From: Alphaproteobacteria bacterium | Lineage (GTDB): Bacteria > Pseudomonadota > Alphaproteobacteria > Micavibrionales > Micavibrionaceae | Direction: 5' to 3' | DNA: 64,000 nt | Assembly: GCA_021775995.1 (NCBI GenBank) | Contig: JAJFGS010000003.1 | Span: forward strand, 124,001-188,000 | Part shown: piece after piece, positions 19,381 through 47,116 of the stretch | How the letters are laid out: the number at the start of each line of letters is the position of its first letter | Numbering within the stretch: position 1 is the stretch's first letter | Made by a program: the position numbers and the translations under genes | The notes under the pieces: generated by a model | Told to the model about the DNA's origin: nothing | The model's input: the letters and a program-made list of their open reading frames with translations, nothing else | The model's database searches: none

Positions 19381-19447
19381 GTAACCCCGTACTTGTTACG
19401 GGGTCTGCAAAGGGAGCAAGGAGACCCCGCAATGAATGCGGGGTTAC
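19381..19447 (-). repeat. Double-hairpin palindromic repeat, copy 1 (inverted)
   Basis: Two adjacent hairpins whose stems are ACCCCGTA/TACGGGGT and ACCCCGCA/TGCGGGGT, with GTAAC/GTTAC outer ends, so the whole 67 bp is also an inverted repeat. Loop sequences show this copy is inverted relative to the copies at 30425 and 34368. Confidence 0.85.
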
Positions 19448-30424: not shown

Positions 30425-30489
30425 GTAACCCCGTATTTATTACGGGGTCTTTTGATTTTTAGCAGACCCCGCAACAAGTGCGGGGTTAC
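30425..30489 (+). repeat. Double-hairpin palindromic repeat, copy 2
   Basis: GTAACCCCGTA ... TACGGGGTC and GACCCCGCA ... TGCGGGGTTAC with a 15-base T-rich spacer. It fills the gap between two convergent genes and could end transcription from both sides. Confidence 0.85.
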
Positions 30490-34313: not shown

Positions 34314-34485
34314 GTCATTGCGAGGAATGCTTATTTGATAATTTAGGACGAAGCAATCCAAAAAGGCGTAACCCCGTATTCATTACGGGGTCTCTTCACT
34401 TCTTGCAAAAGACCCCGCAACAAGTGCGGGGTTACAGTAGAAAATATAGATTGCTTCTCCCAAATAAATTTACGCTCGCAATGAC
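34314..34485. repeat. Composite nested palindrome
   Basis: Outer ends GTCATTGCGAG (34314) and CTCGCAATGAC (to 34485) are perfect 11-bp inverted repeats; inside lie TTATTTG/CAAATAA and GAAGCAATC/GATTGCTTC pairs; the double hairpin copy 3 (34368-34435) sits at the centre. It occupies the gap between two convergent genes. Confidence 0.85.
34368..34435 (+). repeat. Double-hairpin palindromic repeat, copy 3
   Basis: Same arms and orientation as copy 2 with a longer spacer (68 bp in all). It appears inserted in the middle of the GTCATTGCGAG-type palindrome. Confidence 0.85.
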
Positions 34486-39721: not shown

Positions 39722-39819
39722 GTCATTCCGAAGGAGGCTCATATATTATTGGAGCGACTGCGGCAATCCCTTCTCTTAATCTCTCTGGATTGCTTCGTCA
39801 TTTCATTCCTCGCAATGAC
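39722..39819. repeat. GTCATT-type palindromic repeat
   Basis: Begins GTCATTCCGAAGGAG and ends CTCGCAATGAC, so the ends are imperfect inverted repeats, with GCAATCC and GGATTGC facing each other inside. It lies upstream of the acyl-CoA dehydrogenase gene. Same broad class as 34314-34485. Confidence 0.7.
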
Positions 39820-46124: not shown

Positions 46125-46613
46125 TTGGAATATAGGCAGCTAACGAAAGAAGACGCAAAAGAGTATAGAGATATTCGTTTGGAGATGCTTCAAGCAGAAC
46201 CAACGGCATTTGGCGAGTCTTATGGAGAAAATCTGAAATATGATATTGGATTTTTTGAAGATAGGATTAAAAATTCCAATATTTTTGTTGCTTGTGTAGA
46301 AGGAAAATTAATTGGAACAGCAGGTTCTTTTATTCAAGATAAAATAAAGGTGGCTCATAAAGCTTATTTGTGGGGAGTATATACTAACCCTACGGCTCGT
46401 GGAGCTGGCGTGAGTTATAGACTGGTGTCAAATGTTCTTGATGCGTTGCCTGAAAGTGTAGAGTTAATTCAAACAACCGTTGTTTCTGGTAATGCGCCTG
46501 CAATAAAAACCTATGAAAAAGCAGGGTTTCAGGAGTGGGGTATTGAAGAAAAAGCATTAAAAGTTAATAATCAATATTATGATGAAATTCACATGGTGAA
46601 GTTTTTAAAATGA
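46125..46613 (+). CDS. GNAT-family N-acetyltransferase
   Basis: A 162-residue acetyltransferase using acetyl-CoA. The CoA-binding motif A is Tyr-Thr-Asn-Pro-Thr-Ala-Arg-Gly-Ala-Gly-Val-Ser-Tyr-Arg-Leu (about residues 86-100); the C-terminal motif B is Asn-Ala-Pro-Ala-Ile-Lys-Thr-Tyr-Glu-Lys-Ala-Gly-Phe. The first strand reads Tyr-Arg-Gln-Leu-Thr. The start is a TTG two bases after cysD's stop, with GGGG 12 bases upstream. Its TGA stop overlaps the ATG of a duplicated cysNC start, showing that GNAT and cysNC were once directly coupled. Substrate unknown; placement suggests a role with an activated sugar or sulfated product. Confidence 0.82.
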   Translation: MEYRQLTKEDAKEYRDIRLEMLQAEPTAFGESYGENLKYDIGFFEDRIKNSNIFVACVEGKLIGTAGSFIQDKIKVAHKAYLWGVYTNPTARGAGVSYRLVSNVLDALPESVELIQTTVVSGNAPAIKTYEKAGFQEWGIEEKALKVNNQYYDEIHMVKFLK

Positions 46614-46638
46614 AGCAAAGAAATAAAAAATCAAATCA
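46607..46638 (+). repeat. Left 32-bp direct repeat (duplicated cysNC start)
   Basis: Matches 47085-47116 at 31 of 32 positions (G versus A at position 9). It covers the end of the GNAT gene and a full copy of the first ten codons of cysNC. Confidence 0.95.
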
Positions 46639-46684
46639 ATTTATTAACGTCATTTCGAACATTCGAAGAATGGAGAAATCTTAA
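46610..46684 (+). pseudogene. Ghost cysNC start running into the element
   Basis: From the ATG overlapping the GNAT stop, the first ten codons match cysNC ([10 protein letters not shown]), then the frame enters the element and stops at TAA 46682-46684 after 24 codons. The next base begins the GIY-YIG TTG start, so it now acts as an upstream leader frame. Confidence 0.8.
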
Positions 46685-47010
46685 TTGTTTCAAAACAAAC
46701 AAAGCAGTTTTGTCTATATTGTTGCCAATTGGACAGGAAAAGTTATTTATATAGGTGTTCCCTCAAATTTAGAAAAGCGTATCTATGAACATAAAAATAA
46801 AATCTATAAGGGTTTTAGTCAAAAATATAATGTAGATAAATTGGTTTATTTTGAACAGTTTGAAGATATAGAATTAGCGATTATGAGAGAAAAAGAAGTT
46901 AAAAAATGGCGCAGGGAGAAAAAGGATAAATTGATAAACAGCCTTAATCCTGAATGGGATGATTTATCTATAATCTGGTATGAAGATTCCTCACATGCGT
47001 TCGGAATGAC
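46649..47010 (+). mobile_element. Small element carrying a GIY-YIG nuclease gene
   Basis: Left end GTCATTTCGAAC ... GAGAAATCTT (46649-46682) and right end AAGATTCCTC ... GTTCGGAATGAC (46983-47010) are imperfect inverted repeats. Between them lies one gene. A 32-bp direct duplication of host sequence flanks the whole insert. Similar palindrome-associated single-domain GIY-YIG genes are known in other bacteria; the mobility mechanism is not established. Confidence 0.75.
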
Positions 47011-47032
47011 GAAGGTGGAATGTTCAGAATGA
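46685..47032 (+). CDS. Single-domain GIY-YIG nuclease
   Basis: A 115-residue protein of the UvrC/SLX1-like GIY-YIG fold, similar to UPF0213-type proteins. Motifs: Val-Tyr-Ile-Val (GIY strand) at about residues 10-13, Tyr-Ile-Gly near 23-25, catalytic Arg in Leu-Glu-Lys-Arg-Ile-Tyr-Glu-His-Lys, metal-binding Glu in Met-Arg-Glu-Lys-Glu-Val-Lys-Lys-Trp, and Asn-Pro-Glu-Trp. Start is TTG with GGAG 9 bases upstream inside the left inverted repeat; no ATG is available. The last 15 residues are translated from the right repeat and are probably not part of the fold. Sits between the two 32-bp direct repeats. Confidence 0.88.
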   Translation: MFQNKQSSFVYIVANWTGKVIYIGVPSNLEKRIYEHKNKIYKGFSQKYNVDKLVYFEQFEDIELAIMREKEVKKWRREKKDKLINSLNPEWDDLSIIWYEDSSHAFGMTKVECSE

Positions 47033-47080
47033 CAAAGGTGGAATGTTCAGAATGACGAAGGTGGAATGTTAGGAATGACG
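47004..47080 (+). repeat. 23-bp tandem repeat, 3.3 copies
   Basis: Unit begins GAATGACGAAGGTGG and recurs at 47004, 47027 and 47050, with a partial copy at 47073. Copies differ by one to three bases. It starts inside the right inverted repeat of the element, so it appears to have grown by copying the repeat end. Confidence 0.92.
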
Positions 47081-47084
47081 GGTG

Positions 47085-47116
47085 AAAATGAAACAAAGAA
47101 ATAAAAAATCAAATCA
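47085..47116 (+). repeat. Right 32-bp direct repeat
   Basis: Copy attached to the functional cysNC gene; 31 of 32 positions match 46607-46638. The ATG at 47088 lies inside it. Confidence 0.95.

Follow-up and report, generated by a model that had tools for sequence, protein, structure and literature searches.

A GIY-YIG nuclease gene between inverted GTCAT-tagged palindromes: a probable mobile element and a candidate enzyme for CGTC-REPs

Why does a small nuclease gene lie between two copies of the start of cysNC? In the window, by which we mean the whole stretch of 64,000 nucleotides analyzed here, a direct repeat at 46607-46638 and 47085-47116 (31 of 32 bases identical) flanks a gene for a GIY-YIG nuclease. 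The two copies of the cysNC start had been pointed out in an earlier note on this DNA, and they are indeed there. The note had read them as the product of one insertion with target duplication and had hinted that the nuclease might move the family of GTCATT-type repeats found elsewhere in the window. We consider it probable that the insert is a mobile element of about 360 bp, in which a solo GIY-YIG gene lies between inverted GTCAT-tagged palindromes, and that its nuclease drives the copying of REPs.

The insertion at the start of cysNC

From left to right, the locus contains the following features.

46607-46638, plus strand: left copy of the duplicated cysNC start, containing the GNAT stop and former cysNC start (ATGA); single copy in genome G005
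46639-46648, plus strand: 10 bases separating the left copy from the element, read from the sequence
46649-46684, plus strand: left arm, a GTCAT-tagged F-type REP, with GGAG upstream of the TTG start
46685-47032, plus strand: GIY-YIG nuclease gene, 115 amino acids, TTG start (open reading frame; PF01541, E 7e-15; domain at 46706-46969)
46982-47010, minus strand: right arm, an inverted REP ending GTTCGGAATGAC, and right end of the element by its match to a gene-less pair
47011-47079, plus strand: three additional 23-bp tandem units, each closing with GAATGAC, from the sequence
47085-47116, plus strand: right copy, the present cysNC start with ATG at 47088, by sequence comparison

The duplication exceeds chance: its local-alignment score is 59, and scores of at least 40 were reached by 0.04% of mismatched left and right flanks. 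The left copy contains the ATGA in which the GNAT stop and the former start of cysNC overlap, as the earlier note had it, and five bases (47080-47084) separate the tandem units from the right copy. The empty site expected in close relatives was found in G005, the nearest relative (cysNC 84% identical), where GNAT and cysNC overlap by ATGA and the stretch occurs once, and this single copy supports one insertion with target duplication. Moreover, the element was not found in the 240 bp upstream of cysNC at any of nine same-genus loci, G005 included. Since the nearest relative has a single copy and none of the nine loci has the element there, an insertion that duplicated the cysNC start most likely occurred in the lineage of this genome. 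At another locus, L263, 10 bases likewise occupy the position equivalent to 46639-46648.

The element itself spans 46649-47010 (362 bp) and consists of the nuclease gene within head-to-head GTCAT-tagged palindromes, which are CGTC-type REPs. The imperfect inverted ends noticed earlier, GTCATTTCGAAC (46649) and GTTCGGAATGAC (to 47010), are present, and the window tag CGTCATTTCGAAC with its hairpin has the arrangement of a CGTC-REP tag, with CGTC or TGTC outermost and then AT and a palindrome. The right end was placed at 47010 because a gene-less 72-bp pair at another place in the genome (G000:C3:41957-42028) terminates there: its right end is identical to that of the window at 27 of 28 bases, up to GTTCGGAATGAC, and its left end starts GTCATTTCGAAC and has GGAGAAAT.TTAAT further on, like the window. 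Beyond the right arm, the nuclease frame continues into the tandem units. In the window (47028-47032) and at L002, L021, L030, and L187, the frame crosses the right arm, and its stop codon is the TGA within a TGAC tag. At the inner end of the left REP, shortly 5' of the nuclease start, stands GGAG (window) or GGAGAAATCTC (L002), a possible ribosome site.

Whether target duplication is the rule bears on an earlier model, in which a nuclease drives a transposon and its staggered nicks always duplicate about 32 bp of target. An apparent start of the downstream gene is duplicated at 3 of 181 loci (32 bp in the window, 34 bp at L263, and 54 bp at L085), the copy beginning 0 to 3 bases before an ATG in each; the three were selected by eye, and several high scores among the 181 loci were REP against REP. 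These cases and the single copy in G005 favor the model. None of 68 loci with clear tagged arms, however, has an adjacent exact direct repeat of at least 6 bp (the 68 exclude the three long-duplication loci), only 2 of 30 gene-less pairs in the genome of the window (nested pairs counted separately) score as high as the 99th percentile of mismatched flanks (one of the two lies beside a tandem pair), and the long duplications vary in length. Old duplications in noncoding DNA may have decayed, so absence is no proof against duplication; nevertheless, we regard a fixed duplication as very unlikely. GIY-YIG genes elsewhere without flanking duplications, which the earlier note had set against its own reading, thus exist, and they count against the duplication claim and not against the link between repeat and nuclease. 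An insertion sequence with fixed target duplication was also considered and rejected, as the direct repeats lack a constant length.

Because the gene-start duplications recur, they are real, yet they are variable and uncommon. They may be insertions into first codons that persist only because a copy was made, and the copy of the gene start would arise by staggered breaks or template switching. The 32-bp duplication in the window would then be an incidental and variable product of insertion where a coding sequence begins, retained because cysNC was left intact. A longer repeat, of another kind, is present at L122.

The nuclease family and its flanking arms

The catalytic residues of GIY-YIG nucleases are Tyr, Arg, Glu, and Asn. 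In an alignment of 25 sequences, R25, E62, and N81 are invariant and Y4 and Y15 almost invariant, so the residues that mark the superfamily are conserved. The predicted fold has a mean pLDDT of 95.9, and a fold search found the closest solved structures to be UPF0213 BH0048 (1zg2), the UvrC GIY-YIG domain, and SLX1, with BH0048 alone near significance (E 0.002) and I-TevI among the weak matches. The UvrC- and SLX1-like folds, the entries for which concern branched DNA, would support cutting of hairpins or cruciforms by the modeled protein.

The same three nearest folds could belong to a host factor that resolves REP hairpins (compare SLX1 and UvrC) and is sited among REPs without moving them. 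A host factor fits poorly, however, with the patchy presence of the family (19 of 38 genomes, that of the window included, and 95 of 289 of the class), with up to 11 family matches in one genome of the class survey, with a gene placed between inverted arms, and with nearest protein neighbors on the tree that in some cases belong to different phyla. We find this reading highly improbable.

The genome of the window has six GIY-YIG genes of the family (E 0.001). Each of the six has REP-like repeats next to it. Five repeat types are represented, one of them common to L001 and L002, and at L003 the repeats are on the 3' side only. From a wide scan of genome contigs the best 80 of 574 matches were retained, and these came from alpha-, beta-, gamma-, and deltaproteobacteria, Campylobacterota, Planctomycetota, Ignavibacteriota, Bacteroidota, Omnitrophota, Atribacterota, several Patescibacteria, Melainabacteria, one archaeal MAG, and others, though some taxon names among the 80 loci may be owed to MAG contamination. 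A common plan recurs in the wider set: a GTCAT-tagged palindrome, the gene, and a palindrome of the same kind inverted. Seven loci on viral contigs were pooled with the others.

How often do inverted arms flank the gene? When the upstream 200 bp were compared with the reverse complement of the downstream 200 bp, 79 of 145 loci scored at least 34 (150 loci less 4 duplicates and L123, which is without a 3' flank), against 338 of 5,800 mismatched pairs and 6 of 725 random positions. Among the six genes of the window's own genome only L006 reaches 34; the window locus scores 24 because its two arms have diverged. Tagged inverted hairpins (threshold 13, set once and with no tuning) gave a fuller picture. 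After 40 additional loci from multicopy genomes, 33 of them new, brought the set to 179 unique loci, L123 included, hairpins were found on both sides, one side, or neither at 115, 55, and 9 loci, respectively, the window being among the 115, versus 13, 156, and 269 of 438 random positions. Thus, 64 of the 179 loci miss the tagged hairpin on one side (55) or on both (9). For the 77 of the best 80 loci in the unique set the counts were 50, 26, and 1. Loci L260 to L264 were fetched later and lie outside the 179; the 181 loci of the duplication test include L261, L263, and L264.

REPs are abundant in these genomes, and the 156 random places with a one-sided hairpin indicate how readily a small accessory gene landing in REP-rich intergenic DNA could acquire a REP neighbor by chance. 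Against such hitchhiking, arms on both sides are rare at random positions and also at YhbQ-type GIY-YIG genes of the same class, and the type of repeat follows the type of protein, as described below; we find it hardly credible. For the YhbQ-type genes the figures are 1 of 21 on the arm-match score and 1 of 21 on hairpins at both sides, and E. coli YhbQ has an arm score of 16. The sole exception on the score measure, L278, has inverted flanks that score 73 and are without tags. Since YhbQ-type genes are rarely flanked, the REP link is a property of one GIY-YIG clade and not of the domain. We conclude that the nuclease family is associated with REP pairs.

At the 68 loci tagged at both ends, the left tag is CGTCAT in 31, TGTCAT in 19, CGTCAC in 7, and another in 11, and the tag-to-tag length is 343 to 609 bp (median 388). 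If these units indeed move themselves, they would be, to our knowledge, among the smallest self-encoding mobile elements. Tagged tandem units occur at 10 of 182 loci (the window and 9 others) but at 0 of 146 control places; arrays of tagged units of about 20 to 23 bp were seen at one element end at L004, L014, L125, L225, and 47011-47079 of the window. Such arrays may record repeated copying begun at the tag.

Repeat type, gene-less pairs, and copying

Repeat type and protein type go together. Proteins with the motif K-x-G-[SNT]-R immediately after the helix bearing the catalytic Glu have GTCA[TC][TCA][GA]CGA repeats adjoining at 18 of 18 loci (at 16, on both sides), whereas 2 of 161 other proteins have such repeats alongside, and one of the two, L146, has the near variant KGCSR. 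The KxGSR genes found later, L260 and L261, have the same repeats and raise the count to 20 of 20 with GTCATTGCGAG-like repeats; under a stricter inverted-only class rule, the KxGSR loci L188 and L191 are not N-type. Protein similarity also tracked arm similarity in a Mantel test of 170 loci (the 9 loci without a tagged hairpin on either side excluded), with a rho of 0.33 against a permutation standard deviation of 0.045 and a maximum of 0.126 among 300. A tree was also built from proteins in which the motif had been masked; it shows 36 changes of arm class among 154 loci, versus a shuffled mean of 54.8, while classes S and P, like all classes assigned by coarse rules, do not cluster on it. 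The tree kept 80 columns, too few to establish several origins, and is weakly supported, with 7 of 176 inner branches starred, and independent motif/repeat pairs number one on starred branches and seven on all branches. The link may go back to few origins.

Repeat abundance points the same way. Among 38 genomes, that of the window included, the 10 with a detected KxGSR gene have 2 to 77 copies of GTCATTGCGAG, versus 0 to 31 in the 28 without one, 12 of which have zero (one-sided p 2e-4). The repeat is nonetheless present without a detected KxGSR gene in G008 (31 copies; 77% complete), G019 (24), and G004 (14). Together, the KxGSR proteins with GTCATTGCGAG-like repeats and the others form a natural series of enzyme/repeat pairs on which recognition might be mapped.

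Gene-less pairs of the same repeats are common. The genome of the window has 49 GTCATTGCGAG sites (reversed control, 0), many in plus/minus head-to-head pairs, and 54 GTAACCCCGYA sites (control, 5), many head to head, so N- and C-type repeats are multicopy and mostly head-to-head dimers, as CGTC-REPs are. The C-type repeat GTAACCCC of this genome departs from the CGTC tag. The F-type repeat, that of the window arms, is rare: four exact copies of GTCATTTCGAA were found, and one mismatch gave 56 sites versus 65 in the reversed control. By number it thus falls short of a multicopy repeat, though four F-type pairs were read. In addition to its element, the window contains the following gene-less pairs, none assigned a strand.

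19381-19447: gene-less C-type pair (GTAACCCCGTA...GCGGGGTTAC), by pattern search
30425-30489: gene-less C-type pair, by pattern search
34314-34485: gene-less N-type pair (GTCATTGCGAG ends) with a nested C-type pair at 34368-34435, by pattern search and alignment
39722-39819: gene-less pair GTCATTCCGAAG...CCTCGCAATGAC, from the sequence

The pairs read are places with paired pattern matches, a nonrandom sample. Sixteen C-type gene-less pairs, 63 to 69 bp long, share their two unlike arms with the gene-bearing element at L005 (371 bp). A C-type pair lies within an N-type pair at five of the places read (L247, L252, L253, L255, and 34314-34485 of the window), and L253 and the window place are copies of one composite, identical at 148 of 172 columns in unrelated flanks and with no target duplication around this composite pair. 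Judged from that alignment, a gene-less pair has been copied as a unit whose ends are at the tags. Elements alike from tag to tag also occur in unrelated places, for example, L010/L131, L116/L141, and L103/L113. Among 190 element pairs from different contexts, however, only 10 have alignments that stop no more than 12 nt from each of the two tags, and most alignments are shorter. The flanking arms and the ends shared with gene-less pairs support the earlier hint insofar as it ties the nuclease to the GTCATT repeats.

Might the gene instead be a homing-type parasite of REP pairs? Its nuclease would cut pairs without the gene, and break repair would copy the gene into them; the REPs themselves would spread by other means. 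The gene occupies the inner loop of pairs that also exist gene-less, and GIY-YIG is a homing-endonuclease fold, with I-TevI a weak match. Sister Sphingobium plasmids, moreover, differ at one place: four aligned records have REP-gene-REP there, two have a solo doubly tagged palindrome, and two have neither. The solo palindrome is also explained, however, by deletion between the short ACCCCGGG repeats of the two arms, from which it would have arisen unless the order was the opposite. Homing should also fill the gene-less pairs, yet these outnumber gene-bearing ones (16 C-type pairs read versus one). Enzyme type, moreover, tracks repeat abundance among relatives, although homing could predict the same. 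We think homing rather unlikely and return to a nuclease that drives the copying of its own REPs.

In Shinella plasmids, both flanks were matched in at least 15 records, 3 of them with the gene, two of these near-identical. An exact empty site was sought in 6 of the other 12 and rejected, the spacers being too diverged to place the junction; the Sphingobium plasmids allowed a cleaner comparison. In Sphingobium sp. TomTYG73 (L238), the aligned nuclease gene is one base short relative to its sisters and has no annotated gene; it is probably a decaying copy.

A candidate enzyme for CGTC-REPs

What moves CGTC-REPs is a question left by their description. These repeats have a terminal CGTC (often TGTC or CCTC), a complementary AT starting the stem, and short tails, mostly CCA, and they occur mostly as head-to-head dimers, mainly in alphaproteobacteria, Micavibrio included (Di Nocera, De Gregorio, and Rocco 2013, PMC3733652). 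They are found in five phyla and include dRS3 of Neisseria and RPE-4 and RPE-6 of Rickettsia, and how they spread was left open in the parts of the paper drawn on here (PMC3733652). In those same parts, a search for transposase genes flanked by CGTC-REPs gave fortuitous cases only and the repeats "apparently lack a dedicated transposase," and the term GIY is absent from the text (PMC3733652). The window arms resemble CGTC-REPs in the CGTC/TGTC tag, the AT, the palindrome, and the head-to-head pairing, but whereas that survey found no dedicated enzyme, a GIY-YIG gene here lies between the two REPs of the dimer. Two later REP papers, in the portions covered, have CGTC once each, in the reference list only, and mention neither GIY nor a REP nuclease of this kind (PMC6006769 and PMC12306157). 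Among the papers listed in literature searches (open licence, mainly at the level of title and abstract), none linked GIY-YIG with REPs, though such a link may have been reported elsewhere. The nuclease family is, from its sequence context, the best candidate for the missing enzyme.

Other systems resemble the element in part. A REPtron has an enzyme gene flanked by inverted tagged palindromes, and REPtrons and REPINs feature many gene-less dimers and enzyme-specific REPs. The window element is alike in plan (enzyme gene, inverted tagged palindromes, and gene-less dimers), but the enzyme of the REPtron, the RAYT or TnpA_REP, is an HUH (Y1) tyrosine transposase and its REPs are tagged GTAG, whereas the window has a GIY-YIG gene (PF01541) with GTCA(T) tags at the gene borders. 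With both the HUH enzyme and the GTAG tag missing, identity with a REPtron was rejected, and we rate the element as a REPtron-like unit with an unrelated enzyme. For RAYTs, single-strand REP cleavage and a role of the GTAG tetranucleotide are established in the sections of PMC8266576 used here. UPF0213/YhbQ proteins, among which BH0048 is the closest solved structure, share fold and size with the window nuclease, but their genes as a rule are without REP arms. GIY-YIG homing endonucleases such as I-TevI and I-BmoI are nucleases encoded by a mobile unit. The window element likewise has a GIY-YIG nuclease on a probable mobile unit, but its type of protein, about 100 amino acids, is without a separate DNA-binding domain, no intron was seen, and the ends are tagged palindromes.

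How the nuclease might copy REPs can be outlined from the observed architecture and ends of the elements, the ends common with gene-less pairs, the match of repeat to protein, the one copied pair, and the presence and absence of the element in relatives. From these we infer that the nuclease cuts REPs, that cutting drives copying, and how the new copy would be joined. Each subfamily would recognize the REP hairpin particular to it. The nick would fall at the tag or close by, on DNA that is extruded or single-stranded, most likely as a hairpin or cruciform. Host replication or repair would then place a copy elsewhere, normally without target duplication; what is copied would be either the unit with its gene or, in the far commoner form, a REP pair without one. 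A GIY-YIG nuclease hydrolyzes DNA, and we know of no strand joining by such enzymes, so joining would have to be supplied by the host. Extended to bacteria at large, the proposal is that CGTC-REPs are moved by a hydrolytic GIY-YIG nuclease and no transposase, with the host copying the pair with or without the gene, and here we incline only slightly toward acceptance.

If that is true, partnership between REP and enzyme arose with two unrelated enzyme folds, and the nuclease would be a second solution to the task of the RAYT. A nuclease encoded between matching REPs moreover offers a direct test of how CGTC-REPs spread.

Some insertion places appear to recur. The cysD-cysNC spacer of G010, from another genus, has an independent GIY-YIG element with different arms (L053/L007), and the G010 cysNC match contains six stops. 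The same spacer in G023, also of another genus, has an apparent gene-less pair (L050), and the spacer thus looks like a recurrent target. At L011, L032, L264, and L223, elements with different arms either lie directly after sufB-like ends, as judged by eye (three genomes), or, on a plasmid of Azospirillum lipoferum, occupy the spacer annotated as sufB-sufC, and the 3' side of sufB may be another recurrent site.
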